Shown here piece after piece: positions 40,976 to 62,802 of a stretch of DNA of 64,000 bases. Position numbers and translations under genes: made by a program. Position 1 is the stretch's first letter. Each line of letters opens with the position of its first letter. Location: positions 1 through 64,000 of the IMG/VR virus record IMGVR_UViG_3300044797_000318, one strand, 5' to 3'. This stretch comes from a virus. A model generated the notes under the pieces. That model was given only the letters and a program-made list of their open reading frames with translations. It did not search any database and was not told where the DNA came from.

Positions 40976-42337
40976 TTAACCTTTAAAATATTTGTCCATG
41001 TTCATTGCGCCGGTATTCAATAGATTTTTATCCTTGACTAGTCGGTTAAGTGCGTTTTGTATATCCTTTTCTGTTGGAGCCTTCCTATCATTAGCTAAGG
41101 CTTCAAACATAGAAGAGATATACAATTCCTTTAAGTAAGCATAAGAAAACTCGTACTTAGCAGCATATTTGGCAAGTTCCTTTCCTTTTTTAAGAGAAAT
41201 AAGATTGCCAAACCATCTTTTAAGATATATATGAGCCATTTCTGCGTTTGGTAGAGGAATCTCAAATTTTCTATCAAATCTAGACGGTCTATCAGTAATA
41301 TTAGACTTTAATTTTTTAACTTCATTAGCAGTAGCTATAACCAGCAAACCATTCTTTGCCGAAATACCATCCATTAAATTAAGGAAAGAAGAGGGGTCCA
41401 CACTCTTTTCGAGTAGAGAATCCAAATCCTCAAAATAAAGTAAAGAAGGGCTTTGTTCTTCTGCATAAGCAAAAGCCTCACGCACTGCTTCGTCATTAGC
41501 ACCTGCCACAATGGTGACTGGCTTAAAATTGTAAGCCGACATAATTGTTCTAATAATGGAAGTTTTGCCATTGCCCGGTTTTCCATACAAAAGAATACCA
41601 CGCTTCCAAGGAATTTTGTTTTCCAAATAGAAATCCTGGGAGGCTAAGAAATTCTCAACTAAGTTTTTAAGTTCTGTCTTGATTTCTTCTGGTAGAAATA
41701 AATCGGCCCAAGTATGATCCTTGGTGTAGGGCAAATCTTCTCCTTCCACTACACGAATATGCAGATTACTACGATCTCTTTCCACTACCCATTTATCAAA
41801 ATCATTACGAAGTTTAACATATCCTTCATAGTTCTTGCTAGAACATATAATGAAAAAACTAATTTCATCTTCGTTCTGATTTCCCTTATGAAATAAAGCG
41901 GCATGTAGAAATTCCACTCCTCTCGCCTTAATCAAAAACACACCCTGAGCAAAAAACTTCTCAAAATCGTGCTCGGTCTTCCAAGAGATAAGCGAATCTT
42001 TATATAGGCATTTAATGGCAATCTTACGCTCTTCGCAGAACTGTAAGAATTGTCCATCTATAATAATTCTATTATGAACGAATTTATTAAGATCATGATG
42101 ATCATTTAACGCATTTTTATATTGTCTCAATGTCCAATCCATTAAATCAATAAAATTAGCGGGTGGACGATTTTCAGTTAGTGAATGTGGATCGTGCTCT
42201 AAACCAGTCAATCTAGCCAAGGATAAATTTTCTTGGGTTTCCATGTCTTCGGGGGCTAAATATTGTTCTTTTTGTGTGGTCATGCTTTGATAACTCGTTC
42301 TTTCAATAAAATTAGGTACGTCGATTATCGACTCCAC
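40976..42337 (-). CDS. AAA+ ATPase (BCS1/FtsH-like)
   Basis: 453 residues from a GTG at 42337; an ATG at 42283 is a possible later start. The second half is the AAA+ module: GILLYGKPGNGKTSI (Walker A), SLLYFEDLDSLLE (Walker B), VIATANE (sensor 1) and RPSRFDRKFEIPLP (arginine finger). The N-terminal 200 residues are a substrate or adaptor domain I do not recognise. It has no protease domain. It may unfold proteins for the M41 peptidase at 21649-22311; that partnership is a hypothesis. Confidence 0.85.
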   Translation of the reverse strand: MESIIDVPNFIERTSYQSMTTQKEQYLAPEDMETQENLSLARLTGLEHDPHSLTENRPPANFIDLMDWTLRQYKNALNDHHDLNKFVHNRIIIDGQFLQFCEERKIAIKCLYKDSLISWKTEHDFEKFFAQGVFLIKARGVEFLHAALFHKGNQNEDEISFFIICSSKNYEGYVKLRNDFDKWVVERDRSNLHIRVVEGEDLPYTKDHTWADLFLPEEIKTELKNLVENFLASQDFYLENKIPWKRGILLYGKPGNGKTSIIRTIMSAYNFKPVTIVAGANDEAVREAFAYAEEQSPSLLYFEDLDSLLEKSVDPSSFLNLMDGISAKNGLLVIATANEVKKLKSNITDRPSRFDRKFEIPLPNAEMAHIYLKRWFGNLISLKKGKELAKYAAKYEFSYAYLKELYISSMFEALANDRKAPTEKDIQNALNRLVKDKNLLNTGAMNMDKYFKG

Positions 42338-44244: not shown

Positions 44245-45260
44245 TTATAAATCACAACAGTACCATCCACCACAATTCTTACATTCAGAAACAAAACAAT
44301 CTTCACAAACATCTTCTACGCATTTGTGTTTTGGACAAACTACATCAGGATTATTGCAACATTTACCAGAACATGGGCAGAATGTTGTTTCATTAACTAA
44401 ATTCTCATTTTCGCACGCATCCTTATCAAAATCTAATTTTTCTCTATTACTGTCTAATAAATTTTGCTTCGATGAATAAGGGCGCAAATTACTTAATTCC
44501 CAGCAATCTCGAAATGACCGATCTACCATTGAAGTGTAATTAAAACTACTGTGTGGAATGATATGGTCTATCTGCCATGTCCAAGTAGATGGAACATTGT
44601 CGTTCCAAGTTTTGATCTTATAAGAACCATAGTTATTCCAGTTCATCCATGGTTCGAATTGCTTTTCGAGATGATCTTTCAATTCTTGAATAGTGTATGG
44701 AAGGTATTGAGAAACTGATTTATTATTCTTACTTAAACCACTTTTAAATAGGAAATACCAAACTTGACTTGATACCCTTCTTCTAATTTTGAATAATAAA
44801 TCGCTTTGACTGCGATTTTTGTAATATTCCCTACGGTAATTATCTACTTTTCTTTGTTGTTTTTATAATACTCTTTTTGAACTGCGACTACTTTGTCTTT
44901 ATTGTTTTCGTAAAACTTTTTGTGCTGGATATTAATATCCGACTTGTTTTCTTTATAAAAAAGAGAATTTCGGGCAGCTATTTCATCTTTATTATTTTCT
45001 CTGTATTCTTTTTGAATACTAACAATACTTTCTCTATTTGTCTTGTAATATTCTTTTTGATACTCCAAAATATCATCTTTGTTATTTTCATAATAAATCT
45101 TCTTACCATTTGCAATGACAGATTTGTTATTCTCTCGGTAATCTTTGGCACAATCTTTACACATTGATTGTAGCCCGTCTTTAAATCTTTTGCCCTTTGA
45201 AAAGCAGCCTTTATCCTTCTCAACCCCGCATTTACTACATATTTTTGTATTATTATTCAT
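44245..45260 (-). pseudogene. HNH homing endonuclease broken by one frameshift
   Basis: The ATG at 45260 opens a zinc-finger start (ICSKCGVEKDKGCFS) followed by charged repeats of the YYxNNKD type. At about 44845 the frame hits TAG right after NNKEK. Skipping a single base in the A-rich AAAGAAAAG gives VDNYRREYYKN and then the family's LPYTIQELKDHLEKQFEPW, IDHIIPHSSFNYTSM core and a Cys-rich tail to 44245. Reading through the TAG in frame gives no family match, so this is a frameshift, not recoding. Confidence 0.8.
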
Positions 45261-45705
45261 GATACATATCCAAACGAATATTAATAGCTTTTTTGAGGAA
45301 CTATTAGCTGACATTGAGTGCCAACCCACTACTCGTATATATATCACCAGCATTTACGGAAAATACAAGACCGCCCAATTCGATCTATCCAAAGATAGTG
45401 TCACTTTGCTGTTTGCGCAAGCCCGCAATAAACAAGATTTTTTGACTTACCAAAATTTGGGGGACTGGATTTTTTTCGCCAATACGATCGCGCCCCAACA
45501 TCTTCGGTTTGCAAGTAAAGATTATTATGATACAATAGCTCGACTTTCTTATTACTCTTGCTATAAATTAATTAATTGTCAGTGGCAACTTTTTGAGGAA
45601 TTGGCGGACGACTTCATCATCCTAGAAGAAGAAGTTAAAAAGCGACTACCAGCTCTTAGTACTCAAATCGTTCAGGGTACTTATATCGACCCTTACGGTT
45701 CGTAA
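45259..45705 (+). CDS. isolated plus-strand gene of unknown function
   Basis: 148 residues from the ATG at 45259 (MIHIQTNINSFFEELLADIE). Helical and beta segments alternate (TRIYITSIYGKYKTAQFDLS; LARNKQ-type helix). Its start codon overlaps the start of the opposing HNH gene (CATG shared). Its end runs 50 bases into the converging gene at 45656. It has no clear ribosome binding site. Either the endonuclease insertion removed its leader, or the true start lies further in. No family recognised. Confidence 0.55.
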   Translation: MIHIQTNINSFFEELLADIECQPTTRIYITSIYGKYKTAQFDLSKDSVTLLFAQARNKQDFLTYQNLGDWIFFANTIAPQHLRFASKDYYDTIARLSYYSCYKLINCQWQLFEELADDFIILEEEVKKRLPALSTQIVQGTYIDPYGS

Positions 45706-48944: not shown

Positions 48945-50345
48945 TTAAAACAAGAAAGTGGAGGCTTCTTCCGGCTTTTCGGAATGATAGAGTGATCTTA
49001 GCATAATACGAAGTGAAGACATCTCGCGATTGACCTGGCCAAGGGCCGCTACAAGTTTTTCTTGATCGAACCCACTTTCTAATAGGTTCATTACTTCATT
49101 TAAGTCTTTCCTGATTTGAGTAATAAATTGATAGATTTCCAGTCTTTGACCGGAGGTGGCGCCAGGGAGGACTTGATGTCTAAACTTACCTAATTGTCTC
49201 TGGGCTTCCTTAGCTGGCAACTTAGCCTTTAACTGCGCTACCACTTGCACAAAATTATTTCCGTTGGTGCCTAATTGAGTATTGGTTTCTTGTAGGGCTT
49301 TATCATAAACAGCATCTATATTAGATTTTTGGAAGACATCAAACATCTTATCTTTGGGGGCGGCCAAGATACCGTCAATAACGGAACCCAACTCACGAAA
49401 AGCTGGATTGCTAGCTACCACTCCTAAACTGGCAGAGGCAGCTCTATAATCTGTAATTTTAGCAAGAGAGGGGCTGCTGGGCGTAGCAGTAGGTTTTATT
49501 TCCTGATTTTCATCTGCCTCTCGTCCCTCCTCGATAGCTTTCTCTTTCTTTAATTCTGGATCGGTTTCTATTTGACCACCTTGATCTTTAATTAGATCGC
49601 TCGGTCTAATAGCTTTGTAAGTAGAGAAAAGACGATTAACGGCATTCCAATAATTCCAAATTTGCGTCATCATCTTGTGAGAGACAACAATACTATTCTT
49701 AGAAGACTTAACAATTTCTTTATGGAGTTTCTTTAATTCCTTATAAGATTTGACACAGTTGTCCAACATAGCCATTCGCAAACGACGAATGCGAGCCCCT
49801 TCACCAAACCCAAACTTAGGATTGAATAGTCTAGTGATAAAACGAGAAAATGGGTTGGAAGCCAAAGTTTCCAGCTCGTATTTACTTTCCAGACGAAAAG
49901 CTACCTTAATTAATTCCGAGTCGTTTAAGGAAGCGGCTAACTGCTTTCCCATTTGTTGGGATAAGTCTGAATTACCAGGAGCTGCGGGAGCGGCAGTATC
50001 ATTAGCTGGTGGCGGAGTTTGCCCTGGTGCTACCACTGGCTTCTGTGGCTTTTGACGACGGTTCTTAGCATAATCCAATTGTTCTTGAATAATACCATTG
50101 CCTCGATTAACAATTTCTTGAAAATCACCAGCCAAAGCCCCAATGACAGTCCCAGGATCGGCCGGAATAGGCTGCGTAATACGGGAGCGTTCCTTGAAAA
50201 ATTTGGAAGGCCAACCATTTATTGTTTTTTTAATATGAATAAGATCGTTGATAAATGTAGACACGTCTTTGTTCCAAGTAGCTTTATTGGCTCTTAGTCT
50301 CTCTTGGACGGGGTCGGCGGATGGTTTTCGGGCAATCTTTTCCAT
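48945..50345 (-). CDS. long helical protein of unknown function
   Basis: 466 residues, mainly helical, with Pro/Gln/Ala-rich breaks near residues 100-130 and 280-300. SNPFSRFITRLFNPKFGFGE in the middle is the most aromatic section. The layout resembles the 656-residue protein at 751-2721, so the two may share a role, perhaps virion-associated. No family recognised. Confidence 0.7.
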   Translation of the reverse strand: MEKIARKPSADPVQERLRANKATWNKDVSTFINDLIHIKKTINGWPSKFFKERSRITQPIPADPGTVIGALAGDFQEIVNRGNGIIQEQLDYAKNRRQKPQKPVVAPGQTPPPANDTAAPAAPGNSDLSQQMGKQLAASLNDSELIKVAFRLESKYELETLASNPFSRFITRLFNPKFGFGEGARIRRLRMAMLDNCVKSYKELKKLHKEIVKSSKNSIVVSHKMMTQIWNYWNAVNRLFSTYKAIRPSDLIKDQGGQIETDPELKKEKAIEEGREADENQEIKPTATPSSPSLAKITDYRAASASLGVVASNPAFRELGSVIDGILAAPKDKMFDVFQKSNIDAVYDKALQETNTQLGTNGNNFVQVVAQLKAKLPAKEAQRQLGKFRHQVLPGATSGQRLEIYQFITQIRKDLNEVMNLLESGFDQEKLVAALGQVNREMSSLRIMLRSLYHSEKPEEASTFLF

Positions 50346-50371: not shown

Positions 50372-50415
50372 TTATAATAAAAACGCTGGTATCCTACTTC
50401 GATAAGATACCAGCG
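50372..50415 (-). terminator. rho-independent terminator after the ClpP gene
   Basis: On the minus strand a perfect ten-base stem (CGCTGGTATC / GATACCAGCG, 12-base loop) is followed by TTTTTATTATAA. It lies 18 bases after the stop of the active ClpP gene and closes the DksA-ClpP-ClpP run. Confidence 0.9.
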
Positions 50416-50432
50416 ATCCCACAACAGGACAT

Positions 50433-51071
50433 TTAGATAATATGGTCAATAATACCATAAGCTTGGGCTGCCTTGGCATCCATCCAATGCTCGGTTTGAC
50501 AATCGGCTTTTACCTTTTCGAAAGTTTGTCCAGTATGTTTAGCCATTACTTTCAACATGGTATCATTTTCCTCATCAACAAATTCTAGATAGTTTTTACT
50601 ATTAGTAAAATCAAACCCAGGTATTGGAAAAACAAACTGGGTGCCATGGATCATTACCTTAGAACTACGAAGGGCATAACGTTTTCCCTTCGAGCCAGCC
50701 GCCAAAATCCAGGCGCCCGCAGAATAAGCTTTACCGAGGAGAATGGTTTTGATGGGGGCGCGAACCATTTGCATAACATCATAGATATTAGCCATACCGG
50801 TAGCAGCCCCGCCATTAGTATGAATGTAAATATCGATCTCAGCTTCGTGATCTTGGTTATCATAATACAATAACATAGAAGATAATTCAGCCCCTAACCT
50901 ATCAGAAACATTCTCGTAAATGAAAATGGCACGACTTTTAGTTAGTTTGACATAACTTTCTGCATAGCCCATCGGCATTTGCATACGAAAATGATCTTTA
51001 TGATCGTGTTGGTCTTTGGTATTCTCTCGCTCTTTATGGTGTCGAGCAACCTTTACTACTTGATCATTCAT
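50433..51071 (-). CDS. clpP: ClpP-family serine protease (active form)
   Basis: 212 residues. The nucleophile is S117 in GKAYSAGAW and the His is H142 in VMIHG. The position of the catalytic Asp appears to be Glu (E194 in TEHWMD). The N-terminal 35 residues are His/Lys/Glu-rich and lack a recognisable propeptide. The paralogue directly upstream has lost all three residues, so the two may form a mixed barrel. It would need a host ClpX/ClpA or phage AAA+ partner. Confidence 0.9.
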   Translation of the reverse strand: MNDQVVKVARHHKERENTKDQHDHKDHFRMQMPMGYAESYVKLTKSRAIFIYENVSDRLGAELSSMLLYYDNQDHEAEIDIYIHTNGGAATGMANIYDVMQMVRAPIKTILLGKAYSAGAWILAAGSKGKRYALRSSKVMIHGTQFVFPIPGFDFTNSKNYLEFVDEENDTMLKVMAKHTGQTFEKVKADCQTEHWMDAKAAQAYGIIDHII

Positions 51072-51079
51072 GGCTTGCC

Positions 51080-51664
51080 TTACTTATTGAAAGTGACGAT
51101 CTGATCGATAAACCCATACTTCATCGCATTTTTAGCATTAAAGAAAACTCGACGATCAAAATCTTTTTTGACCTGACCCACAGTTTTCTTAGTGGTCTTA
51201 GCCAAAATTTCCATTAGGCGTTGATTGTCCAATTTTTCTTGTTCGAACAGGGCATGAGCACCCGGCAAATCAGTATGCATATGAAAATTATGCACTAGCT
51301 GTGTTGCCGCAATGATAGCATGAGGAGTAGCTAATCTCATTTTAGGTTTGCCGCCTGCTAATATTATTAGTGCCTCATCGAAGGCCGCACCAATACATAC
51401 AGTTTCAATAGGGGCTCGAACCATCGACATAACATCATAAATCATAAAAGCGTTTCTAATATCTCCGCCAGAACAATTAATGAATAAGGTAATCTTTTTT
51501 TCTGGATCCTCATGATCTTTTAGTAGTAATGTCGCCACAATATCTGATGCTAAATCATCATCTAGATGATTAGCAAGAAACAAAATGCGGTCGCTAGATA
51601 ATTTTTGATAGACATCAACGGGAACTTCACCGTGTTCAGTTTGCTCTAAAACTAATGTATTCAT
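51080..51664 (-). CDS. catalytically dead ClpP paralogue (ClpR-like)
   Basis: 194 residues with the full ClpP fold pattern (RILFLANHLDDDLASDIVAT; LFINCSGGDIRNAFMIYDVM). The Ser position is Asp (D96 in IGAAFDEAL), the His position Ala (A119 in HAIIAATQ), and the Asp position Arg. It therefore cannot hydrolyse peptides. Inactive partners such as cyanobacterial or plastid ClpR join active ClpP in one complex. It starts two bases after the DksA-like gene and is followed nine bases later by the active copy. Confidence 0.9.
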   Translation of the reverse strand: MNTLVLEQTEHGEVPVDVYQKLSSDRILFLANHLDDDLASDIVATLLLKDHEDPEKKITLFINCSGGDIRNAFMIYDVMSMVRAPIETVCIGAAFDEALIILAGGKPKMRLATPHAIIAATQLVHNFHMHTDLPGAHALFEQEKLDNQRLMEILAKTTKKTVGQVKKDFDRRVFFNAKNAMKYGFIDQIVTFNK

Positions 51665-51666
51665 AA

Positions 51667-52014
51667 TTATTTCTTTCGTTGTTTAGCTTCGGCTTCACGT
51701 TCTTCTGCACAGGCCACACACGTTTGGAAATGCGGATTATGCAAAAGTCTTTTTTCAGGGATAGGTTCCTCACAATCTTGGCATAAGCCATATGTTTTGT
51801 CATCAATACGTTTCAGGGCCGCCTCTATTTGCGCTAACTTGGCGGAATTTCGAGTATTAAGTTGATTGGTTAATTCAATCAATATATTGGCCTGAATAAT
51901 ATCTGTCTCATCTCCTTCTGTATCCACGTCAATATCTTGATTTACTTGCCTCAATATTTCTTGTTTTTCAGCAAGCAATAGCTCTTTTACCTTAAATAAA
52001 AACGTTTTATTCAT
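51667..52014 (-). CDS. DksA/TraR-family zinc-finger protein
   Basis: 115 residues from the ATG at 52014. A coiled coil is followed by YGLCQDCEEPIPEKRLLHNP then CVACAEE, the C4 finger of DksA/TraR. DksA acts in the RNA polymerase secondary channel and shifts promoter choice. The coiled-coil tip lacks a clear acidic DxxDxA, so the effect may differ. It is transcribed ahead of the ClpP pair. Confidence 0.88.
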   Translation of the reverse strand: MNKTFLFKVKELLLAEKQEILRQVNQDIDVDTEGDETDIIQANILIELTNQLNTRNSAKLAQIEAALKRIDDKTYGLCQDCEEPIPEKRLLHNPHFQTCVACAEEREAEAKQRKK

Positions 52015-52016
52015 AA

Positions 52017-52400
52017 TCAAAACCTCAAATCAGAAATTGGCACAACGATGGTACCCAAAGGGGCTTGTTGCTTTTTACCATCTACTCTTTTTATAAAAAC
52101 TATAAATGCGTGATTTTCCGGCTCTTTAAGAAAAAATGCATTAACTTCCCAGCCATTATACAGGGCCGACCTTTGTTCATTGGCAAATTTTAGAGTGCGT
52201 GTGTTTTCCATCACCTGCGCTCTTTTGAGACGAAACGGACCGTGAATTATTTTAGCCTTAACACCAGCTTGCTCGAAAAAAAGAGAAGCTGCCTCATCTT
52301 GTGAAACGGCTTGTATTACCTCGGAGACAATTTCATTAGTTTGATTGGGCTTAATCGCTACACAGACAAACACAACGGGGCGGGGGCCTCTTTTATTCAT
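52017..52400 (-). CDS. hypothetical protein
   Basis: 127 residues, beta-alpha pattern (RPVVFVCVAIKPNQTNEIVS; NGWEVNAFFLKEPENHAFIV). It overlaps the HU-like gene by eight bases. No family recognised. Confidence 0.65.
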   Translation of the reverse strand: MNKRGPRPVVFVCVAIKPNQTNEIVSEVIQAVSQDEAASLFFEQAGVKAKIIHGPFRLKRAQVMENTRTLKFANEQRSALYNGWEVNAFFLKEPENHAFIVFIKRVDGKKQQAPLGTIVVPISDLRF

Positions 52401-52731
52401 GGTAATTATCTTTCAACGTACTGTCAAGATCTAAAGATGCCACTAATTTTTTATGAATTGGCTTGGCTAAAAAAATTCTCATAATTCGATACCCAGGTGA
52501 TTCCATCATTTGCTGAAATCTAACATCGTGATATCTACGAGGTGGAGTATCTTTTAGAATTATGGTTCCAAGATTAGTAATTTTTATTTCTTTGCCATCT
52601 CGTAAGTCTTTGAGCATTTCCTCAAACAAAATACTGATGACGCTAAAAACATGATAATGATGTATTAATCTTTTAATTTTGCGATTAACATAGTGCCACA
52701 AATCTCTTTTACTAATATTGAGTGGGATCAT
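52393..52731 (-). CDS. HU/IHF-like DNA-binding protein
   Basis: 112 residues. After a helical start, LRDGKEIKITNLGTIILKDT gives the HU signature, and the positively charged arm is PRRYHDVR. IMRIFLAKPIHKKL closes the fold. It is longer than the 90-residue HU of bacteria because of N- and C-terminal extensions. It could shape the phage nucleoid or assist origin function. Confidence 0.75.
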   Translation of the reverse strand: MIPLNISKRDLWHYVNRKIKRLIHHYHVFSVISILFEEMLKDLRDGKEIKITNLGTIILKDTPPRRYHDVRFQQMMESPGYRIMRIFLAKPIHKKLVASLDLDSTLKDNYHE

Positions 52732-54059: not shown

Positions 54060-54399
54060 GTTTCCTTAGTTTGGGCGGGGTAGAGATACGAACTTTCAGA
54101 GAAGGTAATATATGACCGTCTCGACGATGCTCAAAAAAATGTAATTTGGTATCGAAAAAAAGATTATTGAAATTGAGGATTTTTCCCAGCACCAGTAGAT
54201 CGCGAAAGCTAGCAAATACTGCCTTGATAATAATACCAACCTCAGACTTATCTAGTAAGGGATATCGAGCATGAACTCGATTTACTAAATCTTCATTATG
54301 TTTCAGGCTAATTGGATAATCATCATTTAGTTCATCTACCATTTGTTGATGGGTTTGATCCTTGAAGGTGAATGGAACGATCGTATTGAGCTTCTTCAT
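54049..54399 (-). CDS. second HU-like protein
   Basis: 116 residues. After a 40-residue extension, DKSEVGIIIKAVFASFRDLL then GKILNFNNLFFDTKLHFFEH matches the helical base and start of the beta arm of HU, and LKVRISTPPKLRK ends it like HU. Diverged from the copy at 52393-52731. It begins the minus-strand run that faces away from the plus-strand island. Confidence 0.6.
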   Translation of the reverse strand: MKKLNTIVPFTFKDQTHQQMVDELNDDYPISLKHNEDLVNRVHARYPLLDKSEVGIIIKAVFASFRDLLVLGKILNFNNLFFDTKLHFFEHRRDGHILPSLKVRISTPPKLRKHEK

Positions 54400-54445
54400 A
54401 ATATTAACATATAACGAAACATTATCGGCAGGTATATACTTTGGT

Positions 54446-55025
54446 ATGATTTATATTTATGCCTACCAAAACAAAATCAATGGAAAAATTTACATTGGGC
54501 AAACTATCGATTTGTTCGAGCGAGACAGGGCCCATATTTACGGTAACAAATCGATGCCAATCGACCGAGCTATAAAAAAGTATGGTAGAAATACTTTTGA
54601 CTTTTGGACAATAGATATAGTCAATTCCCAAGAGGATGCAGATCATTGTGAAATTTATTTCATCGAAAAAATGCGTAATGAATTTGGTAAAGAAAATGTA
54701 TATAATATTACTAATGGTGGTAGTAAATCACCAACTACCGGAAGAAAACTTTCCAAAGAAACAAGAGAAAAAATATCCTTGGCGCGACAAGGCCAAAAAC
54801 CATCATTGGGTATGAAACATACTGAACAAGCTAAAAAGAAAATAAGTAAAGCCAATAAGGGTAAGAAGCGCTCAACATTACAAATCAAAACTAAATAATG
54901 ATCAAAAAGAGACAATTGTATCTCTTTATAAAGATGGTAAGGTACTAGTAAAAGATTTAGCTCGTATCTATAAAGTAGATAGAAAAACTATCTATACGGT
55001 AGTGCAGAAATTTACTAAAATATAA
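54446..55025 (+). pseudogene. GIY-YIG homing endonuclease with a frameshift before its HTH tail
   Basis: The ATG at 54446 opens a GIY-YIG domain (IYAYQNKINGKIYIGQT) and NUMOD-like repeats (GRKLSKETREKISLARQG). The frame ends at 54898 with TAA. In another frame coding continues as KLNNDQKETIVSLYKDGKVL and VKDLARIYKVDRKTIYTVVQ to a TAA at 55025, a helix-turn-helix like that ending the intact copy at 8565-9401. One insertion or deletion in an A-rich stretch near 54880 has split it. The nuclease half might still be made. Confidence 0.75.
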
Positions 55026-61583: not shown

Positions 61584-61658
61584 TGGTGGGTTGTATGGGG
61601 GTCGAACCCATGACGTAGGATTTTAGAGATCCCCGCTCTACCACTGAGCTAACAACCC
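61584..61658 (-). tRNA. amber suppressor tRNA (anticodon CUA), copy 1
   Basis: 75 bases with encoded CCA and discriminator A. The acceptor GGGTTGT/ACAACCC is perfect, the D-arm GCTC-AGTGGTA-GAGC and T-arm ATGGG-TTCGACC-CCCAT are canonical, and the anticodon loop is CTCTAAA, so the anticodon is CUA, which pairs with UAG. Its body resembles bacterial tRNA-Lys (GGGTCGTTAGCTCAG in E. coli), so Lys is one candidate amino acid. The identity cannot be decided by eye. Confidence 0.9.
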
Positions 61659-61833: not shown

Positions 61834-62802
61834 TTATGAAAGTTGCATCATTCGATCAATAGAAACACGAGCCCTGTTCATCAAATCTTTCGACATAATG
61901 ATCTGGGGCGACAGATCCCTCAAAGAAAGATATACCTTTTCCAAGGTATTCTTCCTCATAAACGGACACTCATTACAAGCGCAGCTGGCTTCGGGAGGGG
62001 CCGGTATGAAAGTTTTATGCGGAGCTGCTTTCTGCATCTGGTGCAAAATACCCGACTCGGTAGCCACAATAAATTCGTTGAATGGGCTTTCCACAGCAAA
62101 TTTGAGAATGCCCGTAGTGGAAGAGATATGATCCGCCATTTTGAGAATAGGTTCTTCACATTCGGGGTGGGCCAAAATCTTAGCGTTGGGATATCTTGTC
62201 TTCAAGCCAATCAGTTTGCGTTCGCTGAAAGTCTCATGAACAATACAGCTTCCTTGCCACAGGGTCATGGGTCGACCCGTTTTCTTGACCAAGTAATTTC
62301 CTAAGTTCTTATCCGGGGCAAAGAGAATGTTCTTGTCACCCGGAATGGCATTGACAATCTTCTCGGCATTGGAAGAGGTGCAAATGTAATCGGAGAGGGC
62401 CTTGACTTCCGCTGAGCAATTGATGTAGCTAATGACCACCGAATTGGGATGCAGACTTTTCCAAGCGGCAAATTTATCGGCAGGACAACCATCCGCCAAA
62501 GAACAACCAGCTTCCAAATCAGGTAGCACTACTGTTTTTTGTGGGCTGAGGATTTTAGCTGTCTCGGCCATAAAATGGACACCGGCAAAACATATGACAT
62601 CGGCATTGGTCTTGGCAGCTTGTTGAGAAAGTTGCAAGCTATCCCCAATGAAATCGGCCACATCTTGGATTTCGGATTCTTGGTAATAATGGGCTAAGAT
62701 AACGGCATTGCGTTCTTTTTTGAGCTTAGCAATCTCTTTTTCTAAATCGAGAGAAGGATCGATATGTTTATCATTCTTCATCAGCGATAAGTGTGTTGTC
62801 AT
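61834..62802 (-). CDS. nadA: quinolinate synthase
   Basis: 322 residues, the typical length. [35 protein letters not shown] and [11 protein letters not shown] lie at the N-domain. [10 protein letters not shown] and CNECPFM provide the other cluster ligands. The enzyme makes quinolinate from iminoaspartate and dihydroxyacetone phosphate using a 4Fe-4S cluster, the first step toward NAD. No nadB or nadC is in this window. It has a GGAG site at its ATG. It may support NAD in infected cells or counter NAD-depleting defences. Confidence 0.93.

Follow-up and report, generated by a model that had tools for sequence, protein, structure and literature searches.

A pair of adjacent phage genes encodes two ClpP paralogues, of which the downstream one (A) is putatively active and the upstream one (D) has lost all catalytic residues. 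The pair has been inherited together in at least 31 viral sequences, and as the two copies are co-inherited across all of these, the dead copy is very probably functional and would most likely serve in a mixed barrel as the partner that does not cut. Our starting point was the window, the first 64 kb of the 138,671-base IMG/VR virus record IMGVR_UViG_3300044797_000318, whose relevant features are listed in Table 1.

Table 1. Position and strand of the ClpP pair and of further features in the 64-kb window.
Feature	Position	Strand	Remarks
D, dead ClpP paralogue	51080..51664	(-)	194 aa; upstream gene; based on Pfam, PDB, family alignment and AlphaFold
A, putatively active ClpP paralogue	50433..51071	(-)	212 aa; downstream gene; same kinds of basis as for D
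Intrinsic-terminator-like hairpin	50384..50415	(-)	directly 3' of A; 14 bp stem, T-rich tail
DksA/TraR-type zinc-finger protein	51667..52020	(-)	beside the pair in 30/30 loci tested
HU/IHF-like DNA-binding protein	52393..52731	(-)	same gene run; 27/30 loci
Conserved 466-aa protein	48945..50345	(-)	downstream of the pair; 29/30 loci
YjoB/VCP-like AAA ATPase	40976..42337	(-)	453 aa; about 4-10 kb from the pair in 8/8 genomes examined
Two short ORFs	44245-45353	(-)	one continuous ORF in relatives L013, L010 and L009
GIY-YIG-like endonuclease ORF	54362-54898	(+)	opposite strand, beside the conserved block
tRNA gene, CUA anticodon (ARAGORN: Pyl)	61584-61658	(-)	possible amber suppressor
Quinolinate synthase NadA, full-length	61834-62802	(-)	Pfam 1e-121; NAD synthesis gene in a phage

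Both proteins are true ClpP homologues. A tandem ClpP pair had been proposed in an earlier sequence-only reading of this DNA, and the two adjacent minus-strand ORFs indeed both showed the corresponding Pfam, PDB and fold matches. The Pfam family CLP_protease was matched over nearly the full length by A (2.6e-44) as well as by D (2e-44), and ClpPs in the PDB were found with both, the pairwise identity between A and D being 33%. Single-chain AlphaFold models gave a pLDDT of 82.6 for A (Foldseek E 8e-22 to ClpP) and 87.2 for D (TM about 0.92 to ClpP), with M. tuberculosis ClpP1P2 entries as the best Foldseek matches of both. On the minus strand of the window D is followed by A after 8 nt, and the DksA/TraR zinc-finger gene ends 2 nt before the start of D. 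With this gene so close upstream and a strong terminator-like hairpin after A, D and A seem to be the last two genes of an operon, which likely stops at the hairpin.

Alignment of A with E. coli ClpP placed S117, H142 and Glu194 at the positions of S97, H122 and Asp171, confirming the earlier reading, which had noted that the downstream copy keeps Ser and His and carries Glu in place of Asp. For the upstream copy Asp, Ala and Arg had been read at the three positions. Asp96 and Arg172 were recovered at S97 and D171 in the ungapped family alignment, but the presumed Ala resulted from a gapped pairwise alignment and is really Thr121 at the H122 position, with no His either way. The same reading had allowed for a shifted alignment that would restore the triad of D. 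As no Ser is found in D of the window up to four residues to either side of the serine position, the triad loss is not an alignment artefact, and its recurrence in every one of the 31 distinct D proteins argues against chance or sequencing error. All of these lack Ser, His and Asp alike while keeping Gly-Gly and Arg27; the serine position is taken by Asp, Asn, Phe, Lys and others, the His position by Ser, Thr, Gly or Asn, and the Asp position by Arg, Lys, Gln, Ile or Leu. Ser, His and the Gly-Gly oxyanion motif are present in the complete set of 31 A proteins, the third residue being Asp in 22 and Glu in 9. Glu194 in A of the window may be regarded as a conservative change, and activity of A is predicted. 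The vacated site of D is most commonly Asp97-Glu98 combined with Arg171 (E. coli numbering), and Asp97 occurs in 16/16 D proteins with Arg171, a correlation that is confounded by shared ancestry. This suggests that a salt bridge may have replaced the triad in D.

Scanning viral contigs with single sequences and with profiles led to 31 distinct pairs, including that of the window, on huge-phage contigs from IMG/VR of up to 481 kb. D lies directly upstream of A, in the same order and on the same strand, in every one of the 31 pairs, with a spacing ranging from a 38-nt overlap to a 12-nt gap. Neither an orphan A nor an orphan D was detected among the fetched loci, and each of ten related records searched contained no ClpPs besides A and D. 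Between closest relatives, dN/dS was 0.034 for A and 0.047 for D, with only near pairs being used due to the saturation of dS in distant ones. The D proteins have a mean column identity of 65%, their frame is open in 31/31 and no broken copies were seen; purifying selection acts on D with about the same strength as on A. The earlier claim that a phage encodes a dead copy beside an active one was thus strengthened by conservation, purifying selection and the matching trees described below, according to which D is kept and co-inherited.

Besides the genes in Table 1, DUF192 was found near the pair in 30/30 loci and an FtsK-like gene in 29/30. As these neighbouring genes are also conserved, the surrounding block represents a core of the phage clade and not a recent acquisition from a host. 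The arrangement also links a DksA/TraR-type transcription regulator to a protease core. Elsewhere in the window, the GIY-YIG-like ORF is probably a mobile insertion, as no counterpart was found close to the pair in relatives, and the two short ORFs are probably parts of an HNH-like endonuclease gene that has been split or frameshifted. TAG stops were observed in 2/63 main minus-strand genes of the window, as would be expected if TAG were partially recoded in this clade of phages.

In a quick tree of 110 sequences, among them 31 A and 31 D, both A and D formed one clade each (support 99) and A+D were separated from bacterial and other phage ClpPs (97), the tree having no outgroup root. A smaller, more careful tree, likewise without outgroup root, joined A+D with 100/99 apart from ClpR and bacterial ClpPs. 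The branching order is identical within the A and D subtrees (eight lineages included). Sister clades with matching subtrees point to one duplication followed by joint descent, and the simplest history would be that one of the two copies lost its triad ahead of the divergence of the sampled lineages, with joint inheritance from then on. Cyanobacterial ClpR fell outside D in both trees, and its identity is 48% to bacterial ClpP and about 36-37% to D. An origin of D from cyanobacterial ClpR is hence disfavoured by the trees and by the closeness of ClpR to bacterial ClpP, with an AU test on the quick tree not rejecting a D+ClpR grouping (p 0.27). As D does not group with cyanobacterial ClpR, its likeness to ClpR is probably due to convergence. 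The comparison with ClpR-type partners, drawn in the sequence-only reading, therefore stands for a triad-less ClpP homologue of a ClpR-like function class, but not for a common grouping in the trees. When a cellular genome collection was scanned with D as query, no relatives of D were found in this one scan, and a second scan of the collection led to ordinary bacterial ClpPs with 39% identity or less to A.

Apart from the catalytic site, the two paralogues differ in those regions that shape the barrel. D has an axial loop, MNTLVLEQTEHG, with E8, G13 and D18 in 31/31, and a ring-contact pair consisting of Asp/Glu at 169 (28/31) and R170 (28/31); residues 169/170 form contacts to the opposite ring, as is established for S. 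aureus ClpP. In A, the ClpP axial loop is replaced by a variable His/Asp-rich N-terminal extension (residues 1-31 with pLDDT under 50), the acidic-Arg pair at 169/170 is usually missing among the 31 sequences, and the C-terminus stops at the position of E. coli Leu189. As the loop and the 169/170 pair are kept in D, and A is without the loop and mostly without the pair, both look complementary, A contributing catalysis and D the entrance loop together with the ring contacts. The hydrophobic docking face is largely kept in D, but two of its docking-pocket positions are polar (Leu114 to Thr in 31/31, Tyr60 to Thr in 27/31), so that an unfoldase may dock on either subunit, which speaks against a simple picture. 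The handle strand (E. coli 124-131) has been rewritten in both copies, in A and in D in its own conserved manner, and a tetradecamer may consequently be unusual or absent.

Degradation of folded proteins by ClpP needs an AAA+ unfoldase. The C-terminal domain of ClpX/ClpA/ClpC (PF10431) was found in none of 19 phage records, none of which is certified complete, while controls matched; similarly, no ClpS adaptor was found in 8 records. An unfoldase of the phages may therefore have escaped detection, and a phage ATPase of another kind might take its place. Matches to PF07724 (AAA_2), considered as phage ClpX/A/C, turned out to be a MoxR/AAA_5-like ATPase. The MoxR-like AAA ATPase, which is conserved in the clade and elsewhere about 368 aa in length, is encoded in one relative, L035 (166-2322), by an ORF of 718 aa, in which the Walker A loop is interrupted by an intein-like stretch (...GVGK-QLCLET to ...PTHN-THIA). 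The YjoB/VCP-like ATPase was rejected as a dedicated unfoldase and is at best a weak candidate, as the whole gene block is conserved anyway and its pore-loop position reads V-A-G instead of aromatic-hydrophobic-Gly. It carries a conserved C-terminal DKYF(K/Q)-like tail. With no ClpX/A/C C-terminal domain in the 19 records, a host unfoldase would most likely be the engine that drives the A/D core.

On balance we lean towards a phage-specific hetero-oligomeric Clp core made of active A and the pseudoprotease subunit D, probably operated by a host unfoldase. Such a core fits the complementary features of A and D, their strict linkage and their joint descent; we infer the mixed assembly, the host unfoldase and the takeover of proteolysis. 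A would supply the peptidase sites. D would be a pseudoprotease kept for structure, that is, for ring and ring-ring contacts and for the axial entrance loops, and would probably also be part of the docking face for the AAA+ unfoldase. As the phages seem to be without ClpX, ClpA and ClpC, the core would most likely borrow the unfoldase of the host, and host Clp proteolysis might thereby be redirected to chosen targets during infection. Mixed rings of ClpP3 and ClpR in a ratio of 3:4 are known from Synechococcus (PMC4673316), and the ClpP1/2 heterocomplex of Listeria binds ClpX 7-fold tighter, its weaker subunit having Asn for Asp in the triad and no N-terminal chaperone-binding motif (PMC5361862). 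Only tentatively, and with more doubt than conviction, we would go as far as a two-subunit Clp core independent of ClpP/ClpR, in which a dead D ring captures the host AAA+ unfoldase and a loop-less active A ring cuts, so that the phage might take over regulated proteolysis of the host with an engine encoded elsewhere.

Phages are known to interfere with host Clp, and this would also suit D as an inhibitor or decoy, which enters host ClpP rings or caps host ClpX/ClpA and stops host Clp proteolysis, with A acting separately. Such a role is in line with D retaining the axial loop and a large part of the hydrophobic docking face. However, a poison would need no active neighbour each time, and the strict pairing, the single duplication behind both copies and the agreement of their trees across 31 lineages suggest that the partner of D is A and not the diverse ClpPs of the hosts, which makes this explanation unlikely. 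We regard it as quite improbable that the pair serves in head maturation as the prohead protease of the phage, D being its structural or scaffold-side subunit. S14-type prohead proteases do exist, PHROG head-maturation profiles match A (1.7e-20) and D (2.6e-12), and no other prohead protease was recognised in a partial scan around terminase and portal, from which divergent ones may escape. Nevertheless, cellular CLP_protease is by far the better match for both (about 1e-44), in four genomes the terminase is 50-52 kb away from the pair (with the portal adjoining the terminase in G001), and in nearly all relatives the pair sits with DksA/TraR, HU-like and FtsK-like genes.

Two further explanations concern D alone. 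It might have gained a function of its own, either binding or a new active site at Asp96-Glu97/Arg172, that is unrelated to a barrel with A. The lost site is non-random, as Asp-Glu at 97/98 with Arg171 is commonest, Arg171 never occurs in D without Asp97, and the GGD(I/V)R motif hardly varies; but the same pattern is explained by an ordinary salt bridge in the vacated site, basal members show Phe-Ala or Gly-Ala instead of Asp-Glu, and shared ancestry inflates the correlation, so that we give this explanation very little chance. Loss of all catalytic residues would also be expected for a decaying pseudogene. This has virtually no probability left and was refuted by frames open in 31/31, a dN/dS of about 0.05, the mean column identity of 65% and the lack of orphan or broken copies.

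No description of a live/dead ClpP pair from phages was found in the open-licence literature searched, and the text of the 2020 huge-phage survey does not mention Clp (PMC7162821). The S14-type head-maturation proteases (PHROG 94, 1684 and 133) belong to the same fold family and give moderate profile matches, which are much weaker than those to cellular ClpP, and our pair lies outside the terminase/portal block. Phage-borne ClpP as such has been reported for jumbo and huge phages (Lak phages, jumbo groups 1 and 2.2; PMC7824862), where an action against the host was suggested (PMC7824862). Yet the ClpPs examined from Lak and from 634-642 kb phages keep Ser-His-Asp, have no second ClpP within 3 kb and are placed apart from A/D in the tree. 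A different tandem of two ClpP-like genes was observed in the viral contigs L063, L067-L070, L076, L078, L081, L084 and L085. Here Ser and His are intact in both copies, the second being of the INSTGGDLY/MSAAF type, and these tandems were rejected as live/dead pairs because of this different arrangement.

Among cellular systems, two unequal ClpP paralogues are also found in Listeria and in M. tuberculosis (ClpP1/ClpP2 in both), but these are still peptidases or nearly so, whereas none of the three residues is left in any D protein. In the ClpP3-ClpR core of cyanobacteria and plastids (PMC4673316, PMC7966870), a triad-less ClpP homologue is likewise encoded beside an active one, and in a Prochlorococcus contig (L203) the dead gene comes first, in the same order as D-A. 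In contrast to ClpP3-ClpR, our pair is phage-borne, D falls outside ClpR in the trees and no ClpC was found. Moreover, ClpR of Prochlorococcus reads INSTGTSWYTGDAVGFET, with an insertion after the first oxyanion Gly and with the His kept, whereas D reads INCSGGDIR without insert. For cyanobacteria and plastids it is still an open question why inactive subunits persist in their Clp cores, and a compact two-gene phage pair with 31 natural variants offers a simple system for testing the role of such a subunit; should the phage core depend on an unfoldase of the host, it could also give huge phages a way to redirect host proteolysis. Hetero-oligomeric ClpP with an inactive subunit would thus extend to viruses, where it seems to have evolved independently of the ClpP3-ClpR core.
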